The notes under the pieces are model-generated. The model saw only the letters and a program-made list of their open reading frames with translations. It was not told the DNA's origin and ran no database searches. Below are positions 251 through 29,824 of a DNA stretch of 64,000 nt, one piece after another (positions within the stretch are counted from its first letter, which is position 1; the number at the start of each line of letters is the position of its first letter). Source of the stretch: Idiomarina sp. (GTDB taxonomy: Bacteria; Pseudomonadota; Gammaproteobacteria; Enterobacterales; Alteromonadaceae); NCBI GenBank assembly GCA_022565355.1, contig JAIUMU010000004.1, positions 1 through 64,000 on the forward strand. The letters run 5' to 3'. The translations under genes and the position numbers were made by a program.

Positions 251-2650
251 ATGATGAAAAAGACGTCGATCGGTTTAGCAATTACAGCAATACTTGTTGC
301 TCCAGCAGTTTCATCCGCACAAGAGCGTTCCACAAGCGCAACAGATCCTGAACGAATACAAGTAATTGGTTCACGATTAAGTGTTCGTACCGCAACCGAG
401 GGTAATGCCCCGGTGGATATTATTAGCGGTGAAGATTTGATCGCTGCCGGCTTTACTGAAACAGCTAAGGCTTTGCAGTACGCGGTACCAAGTTTTAACT
501 TTCCAAGCTCCTCAATTACCGATGGTTCAGACGCCGTACGGCCTGCTTCGCTACGCGGCCTTTCACCGGACCATACTCTCGTACTTGTAAACGGCAAACG
601 CCGTCATAGCAGCTCACTAGTGCATCTAAACGGTACTACCGGTAGAGGTAGCTCAAACGCTGATTTAAATGCGATTCCAATTTCAGCAATCAAACGTATA
701 GAAGTTTTGCGTGACGGTGCATCAGCGCAATATGGTTCAGATGCTATTGCCGGTGTGATCAACATCGTGTTGAAGGACAACGCTGAAGGTGGTGATCTTA
801 ACTTGAGCGTAGGGCAAACCTATGAGGGTGATGGAGAACAGATTAAGGTACATGGTAGCTTTGGTGTGAACTTGAATAACCAAGGCGCATTAATGATTGC
901 GGCTGAGTATCATGATAAAGCACGCACAAATCGCGCAGGCTTAGATCCTCGTCAACAATATCCGCTAGTAGACGGTGAGCTTGACCCACGTGAAGCAACG
1001 TTTGATCGAAGAAGCCATCACGTAGGCGATGCGGAATTTGAAAATATCGCCCTGTTCTTTAATGCAGATTACCTAGTTGGTGATGGCCAGTTTTATGCAT
1101 TTGGCGGTGTAAGCGAGAGAACCTCGAAATCTGGTGCATTTTACCGCCGCGCGCTCGACGCGCGAAACGTATTGGAAGTATACCCAGATGGATTTTTACC
1201 ATCGTTAGCACCTGAAACCAGTGATATCTCGATTGCTTCGGGTTACCGGTTCGATATTGGTGATTGGTATGCAGATGCCAGTGTTGTATACGGTGAAAGT
1301 GAGTTCAATTATCGGTTAGAGAACTCGTTGAATGCTTCGTTCGGGCCTGCCTCACAAACTGAATTTGATGCAGGTACGTTAATTCACGATGAGCTTAATT
1401 TGAACTTTGAAGTATCGCGGTTAATTCCTTTTGTAAATTATTCAGATCTCTCATTGGCGATGGGAATTAGCTATCGTGAGAACGGTTACCAGATTAAGGC
1501 TGGTGAACCTGCATCATATGAAGATGGCGGCTTTGATAATCGTGCTGCGGGCAGCCAAGGGTTTACGGGTTTCCGCCCGGATTCTGAAATTAGCGAATCG
1601 CGCAATAATACCGGTGTATTTGTGGAAGTTGAGAACCAACTTACCGATCAGTTCCAATGGGCGGCAGCGTTACGCTTTGAGGACTACTCCGATTTCGGTA
1701 GCAACGTAAGTTGGAAGGTGTCTGGTCGTTATGAATTAAATGATCAGCTAGCTTTACGAGCAACGGCTAATACTGGTTTTCGAGCGCCGGGCGTACAGCA
1801 ACTCTATTTCACCAATATTTCTACCTTGTTCGTAAATCGTGATGGTGAGCTCGTGCCAGAGCAATCAGGTACTTTCAATAACCTGAGTGCGGTGGCGCGT
1901 GAACTAGAAGTAGGTGCGTTACAACCAGAAGAATCACAAAGCTATAGCATGGGTGTGGTTTGGAATGGGTACAGCGGCCTCTCGTTAACCGTTGATGCGT
2001 ATCAGATAGAGATCGACGATCGGATTATTCTATCGAGCTCCTTAGTGCCGGGTGATTCCCCTGCCGTAGCTGATGCGCTAGCTGCTGCGGGCGCCGATAA
2101 CGCTCGTTTCTTTATCAATGCGGTTGATACCACCACCCGTGGTATTGATGTTGTATTAGCCCAGCAATTTGATCTCAACGAATGGGGTTCGTTACGCGCG
2201 CAAGCGGCCTATGGTTACAATAAAACCAAAGTAAACTCGGTGAATGTGCCACCTATTTTAGATGGTTTAGAAGGGCGTTTATTTGATAATGTAGAACGTA
2301 CGCGAATGACGCGTTCGGTGCCACGCAATAGCGGCACGTTATCACTCACCCATAATTACGAGAAACTACAAACCCATTTAGCCTTTAGTTATTTTGGTGA
2401 CTATGTGTTGGAAAATAACGCTGGCACACGCACTACGTTCAGTGGCAAATGGATTGTGGATTTGTCGGCTCGTTACCAAGCAACAGAATCGATAGCGGTT
2501 CGAGTGGGGGCGCAGAACTTGTTCGATACCTACCCGGATAAACAGTTACCAGAGAATCAGTTTAATGGCATCTTTTTGTATCCTAATACAAATGCGCCGT
2601 TTGGTTTCAATGGCGGCTACTACTATGCCGAGTTGAGTTATCGTTTCTAA
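251..2650 (+). CDS. TonB-dependent outer membrane receptor
   Basis: This 799-residue protein has the full layout of a TonB-dependent receptor. A signal peptide is cut after about residue 23 (AVSSA). A TonB-box-like ERIQVIGSR lies at 34-42. The plug domain at about 50-178 includes LVNGKRRHS and the IEVLRDGASAQYGSDAIAGV region. A 22-strand-type barrel ends in the aromatic residues expected for BAM insertion (YAELSYRF). It would carry a scarce ligand across the outer membrane using TonB-ExbBD energy. The ligand cannot be told from sequence: there is no siderophore gene next door and no Fur box was seen. AAGGG at 241-245 supports the start at 251; ATG 254 is an alternative. It appears monocistronic, with terminators on both sides. 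Confidence 0.92.
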   Translation: MMKKTSIGLAITAILVAPAVSSAQERSTSATDPERIQVIGSRLSVRTATEGNAPVDIISGEDLIAAGFTETAKALQYAVPSFNFPSSSITDGSDAVRPASLRGLSPDHTLVLVNGKRRHSSSLVHLNGTTGRGSSNADLNAIPISAIKRIEVLRDGASAQYGSDAIAGVINIVLKDNAEGGDLNLSVGQTYEGDGEQIKVHGSFGVNLNNQGALMIAAEYHDKARTNRAGLDPRQQYPLVDGELDPREATFDRRSHHVGDAEFENIALFFNADYLVGDGQFYAFGGVSERTSKSGAFYRRALDARNVLEVYPDGFLPSLAPETSDISIASGYRFDIGDWYADASVVYGESEFNYRLENSLNASFGPASQTEFDAGTLIHDELNLNFEVSRLIPFVNYSDLSLAMGISYRENGYQIKAGEPASYEDGGFDNRAAGSQGFTGFRPDSEISESRNNTGVFVEVENQLTDQFQWAAALRFEDYSDFGSNVSWKVSGRYELNDQLALRATANTGFRAPGVQQLYFTNISTLFVNRDGELVPEQSGTFNNLSAVARELEVGALQPEESQSYSMGVVWNGYSGLSLTVDAYQIEIDDRIILSSSLVPGDSPAVADALAAAGADNARFFINAVDTTTRGIDVVLAQQFDLNEWGSLRAQAAYGYNKTKVNSVNVPPILDGLEGRLFDNVERTRMTRSVPRNSGTLSLTHNYEKLQTHLAFSYFGDYVLENNAGTRTTFSGKWIVDLSARYQATESIAVRVGAQNLFDTYPDKQLPENQFNGIFLYPNTNAPFGFNGGYYYAELSYRF

Positions 2651-2672
2651 TCACCTTCGCAGTTTAAGTAAC

Positions 2673-2699
2673 AAGCAGCCTTTCGGGGCTGCTTTTTTT
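2673..2699 (+). terminator. intrinsic terminator of the TonB receptor gene
   Basis: The hairpin AAGCAGCC / GGGCTGCTT with a TTTC loop is followed by seven T, 22 bases after the receptor stop codon. Confidence 0.85.
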
Positions 2700-2707
2700 A
2701 TGCCGAG

Positions 2708-2761
2708 TAGCGGTAGTGAAAACCGCTATTTGTTAGTGCTTTCTGCACTCTTTCGGAGTGC
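2708..2761. other. two inverted repeats upstream of a sigma-54-type promoter
   Basis: TAGCGGT (2708-2714) pairs with ACCGCTA (2722-2728), and GCACTC (2745-2750) pairs with GAGTGC (2756-2761). They lie roughly 100-150 bases upstream of the -24/-12 element at 2858-2874, where a bacterial enhancer-binding protein would sit. They could instead be mere RNA hairpins. I cannot match them to a known activator site. Confidence 0.3.
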
Positions 2762-2857
2762 TGAGGTTGAGTACTGATTACCCATTCATCAGGATTGATA
2801 CCGCATGGTTTACGCGAAACTCACTATTTATATGGGCCACAGGATGTTTTTATAACA

Positions 2858-2874
2858 TTGGCACGAAATTTGTA
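2858..2874 (+). promoter_or_regulatory. sigma-54 (RpoN) -24/-12 promoter
   Basis: TTGGCACGAAATTTGTA matches the sigma-54 consensus TGGCACG-N4-TTGC(A/T) at all but one key base. The -24 GG (2860-2861) and the -12 GT (2872-2873, usually GC) are exactly 10 bases apart. The predicted start is near 2885, about 38 bases before the ATG at 2923, with the ribosome site in between. The site serves only the small membrane protein gene and possibly the copper chaperone after it. Confidence 0.65.
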
Positions 2875-2922
2875 TCTTCATAGGTAATGAAATAACAAAT
2901 AGCTGAATTGCAGGAGATACAA

Positions 2923-3216
2923 ATGAAAACTTTATTCTGGGTGTTGTTAACGATCGTACTATTGGCGGTATTTGGCCCTACTATCGTGGGCTTTATTATT
3001 AGCTTATTTGCGGTGGTTCTCGTGCCATTACTTGTGATTGCATTATTAGGCGGCATTGCTTTCGTAGTAGGAACCGCATTATTTGGTAGCGTAGCTTTGG
3101 CTACTGCAATCGCGGCAGGTGTTTTGGTGTTAGTAGGGTTCAGCTTGTTTTGGCCAATTATATTAATTGCTCTAGTGGTGTGGCTTTTTAGCCGCAGCCG
3201 TACCCAAACGGTATAA
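2923..3216 (+). CDS. small multi-spanning membrane protein, PspG-like
   Basis: This 97-residue protein is almost wholly hydrophobic, with about three membrane segments (roughly 4-25, 28-50 and 55-92) and a short basic tail (SRSRTQTV). It has no catalytic motif. The start is ATG 2923, set by AGGAG at 2912-2916; an in-frame TTG at 2908 lacks a site. A good sigma-54 promoter lies just upstream. A small inner-membrane protein under sigma-54 control recalls PspG of the phage-shock response, but the sequence itself is too featureless to prove homology, so the name is an inference. The copper chaperone gene starts 44 bases later and may be co-transcribed. Confidence 0.6.
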   Translation: MKTLFWVLLTIVLLAVFGPTIVGFIISLFAVVLVPLLVIALLGGIAFVVGTALFGSVALATAIAAGVLVLVGFSLFWPIILIALVVWLFSRSRTQTV

Positions 3217-3260
3217 AATTGGTTAAAGTAGGTTCATCTTATTGTAACGGGACATCGTTC

Positions 3261-3719
3261 ATGAAAAACCTACTAAAAACTACCAGTGTTGCTGCTCTTA
3301 CTTTTCTATTGGCTACTGTAACGCCGGCCTATGCAGACGTTGATGTTGAAAGCCTTTGGTTGCGTGAATCTATTCCAGGGCAACCCAACGGTGCAGGTTT
3401 TGGCGTGCTGCGTAATCGAGGCACCGAAGATATGCTGTTAGTAGGTGCTAGCACCAGTGTGGCTAATGATGTTGAAATTCACCAGCATGTTCGGGAAGGC
3501 GAGCAGATGCGGATGGAGCAGATGGACATGTTAGTAATCCCTGCGGGCGAATCGGTAACCCTACAACCTGGCGGATATCATTTGATGTTGATGCAGTTGA
3601 GTGAACCCTTGCGAGTAGGAGATGCTCACGAAGTTACTCTTATTTTTAGCGATGGATCGTCATTAAACGTTGCTGCCGAAGTGCGTGCGCTGGTGCAGAA
3701 TCGCCATGGTGGTCACTAG
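3261..3719 (+). CDS. PCu(A)C family periplasmic copper chaperone
   Basis: This secreted protein of 152 residues has a signal peptide cut after AYA (residue 25) and a PCu(A)C domain. It carries the family copper motif exactly: His74, ten residues, Met85, 21 residues, His107-X-Met109. A second His-rich end (NRHGGH) closes it. The family binds Cu(I) in the periplasm and hands it to the CuA site of cytochrome c oxidase. The start is ATG 3261 because the signal peptide begins there; the longer reading from TTG 3219 would put 14 residues before it. No Sco or cox gene is adjacent, so the partner is unknown. Confidence 0.82.
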   Translation: MKNLLKTTSVAALTFLLATVTPAYADVDVESLWLRESIPGQPNGAGFGVLRNRGTEDMLLVGASTSVANDVEIHQHVREGEQMRMEQMDMLVIPAGESVTLQPGGYHLMLMQLSEPLRVGDAHEVTLIFSDGSSLNVAAEVRALVQNRHGGH

Positions 3720-3875
3720 TATTGTTACTTAGGTTACTGCCTTTAAACTGATCTACCGAGGCAAAGAAAGTGCCGAAAATATTGCGTAAATCCGCATTTC
3801 TAATAGTGAGAATGCGGCAGCGGTGCCCATTCTGGTGTAATATGTGGGAAAGTTCTGTAGTAAAGGGTAGTGATC

Positions 3876-4652
3876 ATGAATAGAAAAAATCAAGGAATGA
3901 AGTACAGTTCAACGGCTCTTGCTGCTGCCAGTGCCTTACTATTTTCGGCCACCGCATCAGCCGATATTCTCAGTGTTGAAGCCGAGGTTCAGTATTGGCA
4001 ATCTAAGCCTAGCGGTGGGCATACACCGCAAGTGGTAACGCTTCCTGGTGGAGTAGTGATAGATAATGAACCGCGGCAATATCGTTGGAGTGATAGCGGC
4101 CAAATGCGTTTAGGTTTATCGTTGTATCATTTCATACCTCTAGTGCCAAATATCAAAATAGAAACACAGGAACTGAAGTTTAACGCGCCTCGAGGCTCAG
4201 CCCCGATGTCGGGAAGCAGCCATACAGTGAATATGGATTTAGGCCATGAAACTTATACGTTGTTTTATGCGCCACTTGATAATGGCCTAACAGAAGTGAA
4301 GTTTGGCGTTAGTTTAAAGCAATTTGATGGCCATATCACCGAGTTTGAGGATACCAGTACGTACGCGATGTGGCGTGTTAAAGAATATATCTACTCAGGA
4401 TACCTTCGAGGTGCTGCAAGCCTCCCATTTACAGGCTTTTCGGTTGTAGCTCAAGGCCATGTTGGTGTTGGTAGCCATGAGTTTCACGATGTAGAAGCTG
4501 CAGTTCGATATCGTTTTCTAGATAGCATGATGTTTGATGGCCATGTAAGTTTGGGCTATCGCTCAATGAAGTTGCACTTCGATAACGAGCGCTCTATTAA
4601 TACTCATCATGAGTTCAAAGGGCCGTTTTTGAATTTAGCTTTGCGCTTCTAA
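3876..4652 (+). CDS. outer membrane beta-barrel protein, TIGR04219-like
   Basis: This 258-residue protein has a signal peptide ending in ATASA-D. It is followed by alternating beta strands rich in Tyr, Phe, Gly and His, and ends in LNLALRF, a BAM-type last strand with terminal Phe. The opening DILSVEAEVQYW and the length fit the small outer-membrane family known as TIGR04219, whose function is unknown. AAGGG at 3863-3867 favours ATG 3876; GTG 3870 is too close and ATG 3897 is possible. It appears to be a single-gene unit, closed by the terminator at 4669-4700. Confidence 0.65.
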   Translation: MNRKNQGMKYSSTALAAASALLFSATASADILSVEAEVQYWQSKPSGGHTPQVVTLPGGVVIDNEPRQYRWSDSGQMRLGLSLYHFIPLVPNIKIETQELKFNAPRGSAPMSGSSHTVNMDLGHETYTLFYAPLDNGLTEVKFGVSLKQFDGHITEFEDTSTYAMWRVKEYIYSGYLRGAASLPFTGFSVVAQGHVGVGSHEFHDVEAAVRYRFLDSMMFDGHVSLGYRSMKLHFDNERSINTHHEFKGPFLNLALRF

Positions 4653-5212: not shown

Positions 5213-6658
5213 TTATAACCTCATGGATAAACCATCTGTTAATGAATTACGGTAAGCTTGCCAGGCCGGTATTAAACTAATAACGAAACCAGCGCCTAAA
5301 ACGATCGCAACTCGTAACCATTCGGCACTTGATATACCGCCTAGTTCAACTACCACACCGAAATTACTTTGAATATACGGTGCCAGCGCAAAGATAAAGC
5401 CATACAGCATGCCAATACCTACAGCGATACCCGCTAAAGTAAGCACAACCGTTTCGCTCACTAATAGAGTAAATATAGTTCCGGGGCCAGCGCCAATGGA
5501 TCGCAGTACTGCCATTTCCCGTCTGCGTTCGCGTAGGCTAGCTAAAATGGTTGCCAGCATTCCGAGTAAACCAGCCAGCAGCACAAAGCCAGAAACTACC
5601 GATAGTGCCCGCTCAAAACCACTCAGGGTGCGCCATAAATCTTGTAATGTAGCACCTGGCATAATGGCGGTAAGCGGCTCAGGGCGATAGGTGTTGATTT
5701 CCCGCTGCATGAAAATAGCTCGCGGCCTGCTTTGCAAACCTAGCATAAAGGCACTTACGCTTGGGATGGGCGGCTGTTCGTGCTGCTGCTCATCACCATG
5801 GTGGCTGTGATGCTCGTGGTGCTCCTGCTCATCACCATGCTGGCTGTGATGCTCGTGGTGTTCATGCTCATCACCATGATGGCTGTGATGCGCATGGTGT
5901 TCATGCTCATCACCATGATGGCTGTGATGCGCATGGTGCTCATGTTCATCACCATGATGTTCGTGATGGTCATGGTGCTCATGCTCGTCATTATGATGCT
6001 CGTGGCCATGATCATCGTGTGCATGGCCACCGTGCATGATGTCGAGATCACGCAAACTAATATAGATCGCTTGATCCACAGGTGTGCCGGTGCGCGCCAA
6101 CACACCGGCAATGGTAAGGGGTTGATCATCGTGTTCATGAAAACTAATACTGCCGGTGCCGTGGGCTACTACCAGCTCATCACCAAGCTGCAAACCAAGC
6201 CGGCGTGCTACTTCGGCGCCAATTACGGCATTTTCTTGGCTAAAGGGCGCACCGCTGGTGAATACAAGCGGCTGCTGTTGGCCATAGCGGAAATGCTCAA
6301 AAAAGGTAGGCTCGGTAGCAACTACTGGGAATCCACGCACGCTATCACCAAGTGCTATCGGCACGCTCCACGTAACTTGGCTATTATTGGCCCAATGTTG
6401 ATAGGTTTCCCAGCTCACATTATTTGTAGGGTTGCCAATATGAAAAACTGAGTACAGCAATAAGTTCACGCTGCCGCTGCGGGCGCCAACGATAAGATCA
6501 GTGCCGGAAATCGTATTTGCAAAACCGGTGCGAGTTTCTTGGCTTACGCGCTCAACCCCAAGCAGCAGCATTACGCTAATGGCAATCGCGAGCAGGGTAA
6601 GAATGGCATTCGATTTGCGGCTGAGTAGGCTTGCGATCGCAAGTTTAATTACCTGCAT
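5213..6658 (-). CDS. FtsX/MacB-type ABC permease with histidine-rich repeat loop
   Basis: This 481-residue permease has the LolC/MacB plan: one membrane segment near the start (about 16-34), a large periplasmic domain (about 40-345) and three C-terminal segments (about 351-373, 396-428 and 446-466). The FtsX-domain motif REMAVLRSIGA lies at 380-390. The unusual part is residues 209-294, where an insert contains His, Glu, Asp, Ser and Gly almost exclusively. It includes tandem 13-residue units of the type HEHHAHHSHHGDE, and over 40 His fall in this stretch. This should be a periplasmic metal-binding arm, most plausibly for zinc, nickel or copper. It overlaps the ATPase gene by 14 bases and abuts DUF3299. 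The set recalls the zinc-regulated Zrg genes of Vibrio; the substrate is not proven. Confidence 0.85.
   Translation of the reverse strand: MQVIKLAIASLLSRKSNAILTLLAIAISVMLLLGVERVSQETRTGFANTISGTDLIVGARSGSVNLLLYSVFHIGNPTNNVSWETYQHWANNSQVTWSVPIALGDSVRGFPVVATEPTFFEHFRYGQQQPLVFTSGAPFSQENAVIGAEVARRLGLQLGDELVVAHGTGSISFHEHDDQPLTIAGVLARTGTPVDQAIYISLRDLDIMHGGHAHDDHGHEHHNDEHEHHDHHEHHGDEHEHHAHHSHHGDEHEHHAHHSHHGDEHEHHEHHSQHGDEQEHHEHHSHHGDEQQHEQPPIPSVSAFMLGLQSRPRAIFMQREINTYRPEPLTAIMPGATLQDLWRTLSGFERALSVVSGFVLLAGLLGMLATILASLRERRREMAVLRSIGAGPGTIFTLLVSETVVLTLAGIAVGIGMLYGFIFALAPYIQSNFGVVVELGGISSAEWLRVAIVLGAGFVISLIPAWQAYRNSLTDGLSMRL
5791..5985 (-). repeat. 39-bp in-frame tandem repeat (His-rich loop)
   Basis: On the + strand CATCACCATG recurs at 5791, 5830, 5869, 5908 and 5947, a strict 39-base period over five units with small base changes. 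Each unit encodes 13 residues of the permease loop. The period is a multiple of three, so slippage would change loop length without breaking the frame. The last unit is more diverged than the rest. Confidence 0.93.
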
Positions 6659-28129: not shown

Positions 28130-29824
28130 TTAAATACTCACGCGCTTGTACTCGCGATAGTGTGCACGCCAGAAGTTACTTTCAATGCGCTGCTCTAACA
28201 CCTCATCGGCAAGCTCAAGTGCATGGCCTTGCTCTTGCGCCACCTTACCCACCGCAAAAGCAATTTTCTTACTTAGTTCGGCAATTTCAGTAATCGCAGG
28301 CAACAAGTGGTTCGATTCCCCATTGGCTAATGGTGATGCATCTGCCAAGGTGCGGCTTGCTGCAACCAGCATTTCTTCAGTAATGCGGGTGGCTTTAACC
28401 GCCAATACTCCGAGGCCGATACCTGGGAAAATATAGCTATTGTTGCACTGGGCAATAGGATACGTAGTTTCACCGCGATGCACAGGTGCAAAAGGGCTGC
28501 CTGTTGCCACCACAGCATTGCCATTGGTCCATTCCAATACATCGCTCGGTAGCGCTTCTACCCGGCTTGAAGGGTTGGAAAGCGGGAAGATGATCGGGGC
28601 TGGTGTGTATTGGTGCATGGCCCGAATCACTTGCTCTGTGAATAATCCGGGTTGTCCAGAAACACCGATAAGCACGGTAGGCTGCGCACAGTGCATTACA
28701 TCAAGTAATGAGGCGAAATCACCGCTGTATTGCCAATCCGCAAGCGCGGCTTTGCTCTGTACCAGCTCTTCTTGGAAATCGCGCAGGCCTTCCATTCCCT
28801 CGCTAAGCAAGCCAAAGCGATCCACCATGAAAATTCGTGCTTTTGCTTCTTCGCGGCTAAGGCCTTCTGAACACATATGCGAAATAATATGCTCGGCGAT
28901 ACCACAGCCCGCTGATCCTGAGCCTACAAATACTACTTTCTGCTCAGAAAGCTTTTGCCCGGTTGATTTACAGGCGGCCAATAACGTACCTGCGGTAACC
29001 GCAGCTGTGCCTTGAATATCATCGTTAAAGCAGCATACCTGATCTTGGTAGCGGCGCAGAATAGGCATCGCCGTTTGCTGGGCGAAATCCTCAAACTGAA
29101 TCATTACGTTTGGCCAACGGCGTTTTACAGCTTGAATAAATGTATCTACGAAATCATCGTATTCTTTACCAGTTATTCGTTTATGGCGGGCGCCCATGTA
29201 CATCGGATCATTGAGTAGCTTTTCATTGTTGGTACCTACATCCAGCATCACTGGCAAGGTATAGGCTGGGCTAATACCACCACAGGCGGTGTAGAGTGAG
29301 AGCTTCCCAATCGGAATACCCATGCCGCCAATCCCCTGATCGCCAAGCCCCAATATGCGCTCGCCATCAGTAACTACAATTACTTTTACGTTACGTTTAG
29401 TGGCGTTGCGCAAAATGTCGTCCATTTGCTCACGCTCGGCGTAGGAAATAAACAGCCCTCGCGAACTACGGTAAATATCCGAGAACTTTTCGCACGCATT
29501 GCCCACTGTAGGTGTGTAGATAATGGGCATCATCTCTTCAAGATGCTTGCTCACCAACTTATGAAACATGGTTTCATTGTTATCTTGAATGGCACGCAAA
29601 TAAATATGCTTGTTCAGTGGTGTATCGAAGCTCTGGTATTGCATGTAGGCGCGATTTACTTGCTCTTCAATAGTTTCATAGCGCGGTGGCAATAACCCGG
29701 TAAGGTTAAATGCGATGCGCTCTTCGCGAGTAAACGCGCTGCCTTTATTTAGCAGTGGTGTTTCTAACAACGAAGGCCCTGCGTGCGGAATATATAAAGG
29801 GCCTTTTGAACGTTCACTACTCAT
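28130..29824 (-). CDS. maeA: NAD-dependent malic enzyme
   Basis: This 564-residue enzyme oxidatively decarboxylates malate to pyruvate. It is nearly the length of E. coli MaeA/SfcA (565), without the phosphotransacetylase-like tail of Mae[17 protein letters not shown] and [10 protein letters not shown] mark the malate site, [19 protein letters not shown] holds the catalytic Lys, QFEDFAQ the metal site, and [15 protein letters not shown] the NAD fold. It lies 67 bases after hemL and may be a separate unit. Confidence 0.95.

Follow-up and report, generated by a model that had tools for sequence, protein, structure and literature searches.

Phage-shock systems are best known from enterobacterial pspABC and pspG. 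Our analysis of a 64,000-nucleotide stretch of Idiomarina sp. DNA (hereafter, the window) points to a small gene, encoding a predicted two-helix inner-membrane protein of 97 amino acids, that is likely to be switched by PspF and sigma-54 and to be the surviving gene of a second psp operon, of which it has retained the promoter and the enhancer. Its regulation by sigma-54 and PspF is well supported by the make-up of its upstream region and by the setting of its homologues. The features on which this reading is built are collected in Table 1.

Table 1. Features in and around the small gene (window coordinates)
Feature	Position	Strand	Basis
Hairpin resembling a terminator, with a T tail, downstream of the TonB-dependent receptor gene	2673..2694	+	Site scan of 2600-4000
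Predicted PspF enhancer (UAS), ACCGCTATTTGTTAGTGCTT	2722..2741	+	Matrix score 11.8; centred some 129 bp before the -24 GG
Sigma-54 -24/-12 promoter, TGGCACGAAATTTGTA	2859..2874	+	Sequence match; kept in relatives; resembles the genome's own pspA promoter
Ribosome-binding sequence, AGGAG	2912..2916	+	Read from sequence
Small inner-membrane protein gene, 97 aa	2923..3216	+	ATG open reading frame; predicted two-helix hairpin
PCu(A)C copper chaperone gene, taken to start at an ATG	3261..3719	+	PF04314, E 9.5e-37
TIGR04219 outer-membrane beta-barrel protein, conserved neighbour	3876..4652	+	182.6 bits, cut-off 105

The product of the small gene agrees with the tiny membrane protein described in the preliminary description of this DNA. 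It is strongly hydrophobic (GRAVY 2.06), has only three charged residues (K2, R91 and R93) and is modelled by AlphaFold2 as a hairpin of two helices (residues 2-54 and 57-90; mean pLDDT 92.2, pTM 0.60); from its hydropathy, the protein would reside in the inner membrane. When named genomes were scanned with the window protein as sole query, no relative turned up. A profile built from 26 homologues (A1) matches 269 of the 395 sampled genomes of the family, and within the sample all 17 genomes of the window's genus are matched.

The setting of these homologues identifies the kind of system to which the gene would belong. In Colwellia, Thalassotalea and their kin they lie in a second psp operon, in the order leader-pspA2-pspC2-small gene. 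In 18 regions chosen from other genera, pspA2 lies upstream in all 18 and phmmer finds a short pspC upstream in 14; the regions without a phmmer pspC hit are L173, L174, L176 and L180, and in the two genomes that supplied L173 and L174 pspC-like ends could be read by eye ahead of L068 and L056. The one pspA2 product that was checked exceeds the cut-off of the pspA model (271.5 against 242.95 bits), and none of the 18 regions gave a pspB or pspF hit. A sigma-54 site precedes the leader or pspA2 in these regions, with no mismatch in five, one in six and two in seven, and their enhancer scores (see below) are raised, eight of the 18 exceeding the 95th percentile set by other segments of these loci. 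A larger set of 69 loci, mostly from Colwellia and Thalassotalea, holds pspA2 in 67 and pspC2 in 68. Where enough upstream DNA was present (66 loci), the operon's sigma-54 site has no mismatch in seven loci, one in 47, two in 11 and three in one; at most one mismatch is thus seen in 54/66 loci, against 36/1128 control segments from which the true promoters had been left out. The shared form of this promoter is TTGGCA(C/T)(A/G)NCACTTGTAATA. The enhancer scores of the same 66 loci have a median of 6.4 against 0.7 in controls that still included the true sites, and 16/66 exceed the 95th percentile. The leader gene, of about 100 amino acids and with a signal-peptide-like start, stands ahead of pspA2 in many regions (for example at 3082-3399 of L163); one leader protein was searched, and it matched no Pfam family.

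In the window's own genome the small gene is not adjacent to pspA or pspC genes, the co-directional neighbours that it has in relatives. In this genome a single PspA exceeds the cut-off and a single PspC is encoded, and therefore pspA2 and pspC2 are absent from the assembly, which is 94.95% complete. An intermediate state, in which a pspA paralogue lies directly upstream of the small gene, occurs in two of 30 close relatives, a set chosen as gene-bearing from three small-genome genera (17 genomes of the window's genus, plus six and seven) whose shared kinship means that counts within it are not independent. One of these two paralogues falls below the cut-off of the pspA model (233.3 against 242.95). 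We infer that pspA2 and pspC2 were lost in the window's lineage, rather than never having been there, and the gene looks like a remnant of the second psp operon that has kept its promoter. Since relatives place it in a second phage-shock operon, the small gene is probably a new member of the membrane-repair response. The preliminary description had guessed at such a response, and its guess is borne out both by the psp-type operon of the homologues and by the pspF, rpoN and pspABC genes of the genome. Like the pspF-pspABC operon, the second locus has the same type of regulator, the same type of promoter and enhancer and, in relatives, psp-type neighbours; unlike it, the second locus has its own pspA, a short pspC, a leader gene with a signal-peptide-like start and a membrane protein named by no library searched.

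The more specific suggestion of the preliminary description, that the gene is pspG, was not supported. Neither Pfam nor NCBIfam places the protein in the PspG family (PF09583) by family model: for the window protein and 25 homologues, PspG models are absent from the best 25 of 31 Pfam families and from the best 25 of 33 NCBIfam families. Among 247 sampled genomes of the order, 46 have PspG over the cut-off; among 147 sampled genomes of the family none does, and the one match below the cut-off contains an internal stop. It is nevertheless conceivable that the small protein is a true PspG, so highly diverged that it escapes the curated models. Two membrane helices are predicted for E. coli PspG, which is termed an effector of the Psp response in the part of the source available to us (PMC2763126), and the small protein is of similar size, has the same predicted two-helix hairpin and carries near its C-terminus a P-W / W-P ... 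W motif. Comparison of A1 with ten PspG sequences by hhalign gave a probability of 74.5% (83.2% with query and template swapped) and a score of 31.6, where 100 column permutations reached no more than 15.6; with larger alignments the score was 21.2, above the 9.9 to 16.4 of reversed and other-family controls. With a 70-sequence alignment, however, the probability was 11.4% over 20 residues, and because the signal obtained with ten PspG sequences weakened with 70 homologues we do not claim remote homology. In addition, the 26 members have no PspG model among their listed matches, and the homologues sit in an operon, whereas E. coli pspG is an orphan. We therefore consider a diverged PspG unlikely. 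As with PspG, which in E. coli and Yersinia is an orphan target of PspF, the protein is small with two predicted membrane helices, and its gene has a sigma-54 promoter and a PspF-type enhancer of its own, separate from pspABC. The differences lie in the C-terminal motif, W-P in the small protein and P-W in PspG, and in the membership of the homologues in a pspA2-pspC2 operon. The gene is better described as a remnant of the second psp operon than as pspG.

The next gene had been read as a copper chaperone, and it clearly encodes a PCu(A)C protein; what sets it apart from the known setting of such chaperones is that it lies beside a psp-type gene. A PCu(A)C gene follows the small gene on the same strand in 29/30 close relatives (the exception, L132, retains the barrel gene), and it does so likewise in 13/18 of the regions from other genera and in 61/69 of the Colwellia/Thalassotalea-type loci. 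This recurrence, together with the lack of a terminator-like site between the two genes in the window, could mean that the small protein has the copper chaperone as a working partner, perhaps to restore copper-dependent respiratory enzymes after a fall in proton motive force. Against such a partnership, a gene on the opposite strand intervenes in 5/18 regions, and the gap between the two genes, 44 bp in the window, has a median of 954 bp in the 61 loci. Furthermore, PCu(A)C travels with DUF2333 and the TIGR04219 barrel, and for this reason it is perhaps a separate unit. A transcript shared by the small gene and the PCu(A)C gene is thus possible in the window but would not be general among relatives, and we regard the copper partnership as quite doubtful. 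We are equally sceptical of its wider form, in which a second sigma-54 Psp system would extend across this marine family, with a PspA, a short PspC and a signature membrane protein of its own, and would couple inner-membrane stress to respiratory copper delivery through the PCu(A)C-DUF2333-barrel neighbours. Further along the window, the minus strand (5213-6658) encodes a permease of the FtsX type that contains a long insert rich in histidine. The adjoining genes are a DUF3299 gene and one for an ABC-type ATPase, and the permease is presumably a metal-related transporter.

How would the small gene be controlled? The genome encodes a single copy of rpoN, the sigma-54 gene, and carries pspA, pspB and pspC in order, each above its curated cut-off. 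Its PspF scores above the cut-off of TIGR02974 (549.5 against 443.55 bits) and below that of a second model, NF008622 (504.9 against 529). The search for pspF and pspABC elsewhere in the genome, proposed in the preliminary description, thus found both, and rpoN in addition. Besides PspF, the proteins clearly of activator type are NtrC, TyrR and an NtrC-like response regulator that is over no equivalog cut-off shown. The GAFTGA motif is required for sigma-54 activation, and the TyrR sequence is without it.

The enhancers of PspF were modelled by a matrix of 20 bases built from the best seed match in each of the 30 pspA upstream regions (19 distinct cores), some of these training matches being poor, with up to 7/20 mismatches. 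Seven of the 30 pspA upstream regions (L138, L139, L140, L142, L143, L144 and L147) are without a strict GG-N10-G site (at most three mismatches, over 200 bp), and the best match to the enhancer seed in these regions is mostly weak, at 3 to 7 mismatches of 20. The E. coli K-12 pspA and pspG genes provide an independent check of this matrix. At pspA it gives one hit of at least 6 in the surrounding 5.0 kb, with a score of 22.3, and at pspG only two such hits in the surrounding 4.5 kb, which overlap (15.5 and 11.1). According to the accessible part of PMC3709507, PspF binds two enhancers at pspA and one at pspG, so that the matrix finds one place at pspA against the two described there.

In the window, a score of at least 11 is reached at two places, the predicted enhancer and position 29165 (13.5). 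The score of the predicted enhancer was reached by 2/900 shuffled regions. When the 45 sigma-54-like sites of the genome are ranked by the matrix, the window site comes third, behind pspA and a DUF2884 gene that scores 21.7, and ahead of a fourth site at 8.1. The pspA score of 25.3 is far above the window's 11.8, though pspA was also among the regions used for training. The promoters of the small gene in the 30 close relatives have a median enhancer score of 7.1, against 0.2 in 900 shuffled regions (Mann-Whitney p 6e-14); 15/30 lie above the 95th percentile of the shuffles and the other 15/30 below it, with five scoring 3.6 or less. Between enhancer and promoter, no IHF site better than three mismatches was found. 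The PspF-type enhancer match, the pspF gene of the genome and the psp-type operon of the homologues agree with the earlier suggestion that PspF controls this promoter, which is probably correct. The DUF2884 gene, on contig 4 at 83985 and so beyond the window, has a zero-mismatch sigma-54 site and is likely to be a further PspF target. DUF2884 is present in 11/30 relatives, with GG-N10-G upstream (at most three mismatches) in 11/11 and enhancer scores from 0.4 to 21.7.

A sigma-54 promoter might instead be served by another activator, either NtrC, in response to nitrogen, or the NtrC-like response regulator of this genome. Such an arrangement would draw on the presence of NtrC, whose gene lies beside histidine kinase and glutamine synthetase genes recognised by eye, on the second response regulator and on a dyad, TGCACTCTTTCGGAGTGCT, which is found at 2744-2762, between enhancer and promoter, with a spacing unlike that of an NtrC site. 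The best NtrC-type dyad, however, has 3/10 mismatches and the best GlrR-type pattern 4/8, the upstream region has a PspF-type enhancer match, and the homologues lie within psp operons, all of which makes control by another activator improbable. Another candidate for the enhancer was the CACT-N7-AGTG dyad at 2746-2760; it was not picked by the pspA-trained matrix, and the place at 2722-2741 was preferred.

The promoter to which PspF would act keeps the GG-N10-G layout, with GG at 2860-2861 and GT at 2872-2873, and lies 64 bp ahead of the ATG. TGGCACGAAATTTGTA has one mismatch to TGGCACGNNNNTTGCW, or none if C or T is allowed at -12, and is the sole place within the 64-kb window with at most one mismatch to this pattern. 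It differs from the promoter of the genome's own pspA, TGGCACGCTATTTGTA, at two bases, both in the unconstrained N4. Places with at most three mismatches occur in the window at chance level (144 against 139 expected), and in the whole 2.72-Mb genome 45 sites have one mismatch or none, where the reversed pattern that served as control has 23; the bare -24/-12 match is, genome-wide, weak to modest evidence.

Conservation is the stronger argument for the promoter. A GG-N10-G site with at most three mismatches to TGGCACGNNNNTTGYW is found in 30/30 close relatives, before the small gene in 28 and, by a wider search, before the directly upstream pspA paralogue in two. The best site has no mismatch in eight genomes, one in 12, two in seven and three in three. 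The controls, 185-bp segments of these loci that still included the two pspA-paralogue promoters, have no mismatch in one case, one in none, two in seven and three in 50, or 58/762 with at most three; at most one mismatch is therefore seen in 20/30 relatives and in 1/762 controls. The near-consensus sigma-54 promoter of the preliminary description, with GG-N10-G intact and the site conserved before the gene in relatives, is on these comparisons of sequence confirmed as real. That the match is an accident, as the 45 genomic occurrences against 23 for the control pattern might allow, and that an ordinary sigma-70 promoter drives the gene is scarcely credible, given that the site is kept in 30/30 relatives and that the sole sigma-70-like match in 2600-4000, of a kind about as frequent there as by chance, falls within the small gene itself. 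On its upstream side, the terminator-like hairpin probably separates the TonB-dependent receptor gene from the small gene; alone this hairpin is weak, because two such sites occur in 2600-4000 against 1.6 expected in shuffles.

We propose that membrane damage would draw PspA off PspF, and that freed PspF, bound near 2722-2741, would contact the sigma-54 polymerase at 2859-2874. The small protein would then be produced together with PspABC and, once in the membrane, may have an effector role in the Psp response similar to that of PspG. An ancestral operon, leader-pspA2-pspC2-small gene, would have lost its upstream genes in the window's lineage while promoter and enhancer stayed. In this proposal, the promoter, the enhancer match, the pspF, rpoN and pspABC genes and the psp-operon setting of the homologues are seen in the sequences themselves, and the dependence on PspF in the cell and the effector role of the small protein are inferred.

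The second psp operon of marine bacteria is apparently undescribed. None of the literature matches listed describes it, as far as their titles and the beginnings of their abstracts tell, and it is not mentioned in the accessible portions of the large psp surveys PMC9239133 and PMC11237479; the words PspG, Alteromonad, Shewanella, Idiomarina and DUF2333 are absent from the main text of the latter. It resembles other pspA operons with extra membrane genes, as presented in the available text of Ravi et al. 2024 (PMC11237479), in combining PspA with small membrane partners, and differs from them in that the partners described in that text are others.

Some relatives hold the full operon and the window's lineage what looks like a single remnant gene, and this contrast makes the role of a minimal PspF-controlled membrane effector directly testable. 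That a second psp operon, one gene of which encodes an unnamed membrane protein, is widely conserved suggests that current models miss Psp effectors outside the enterobacteria.
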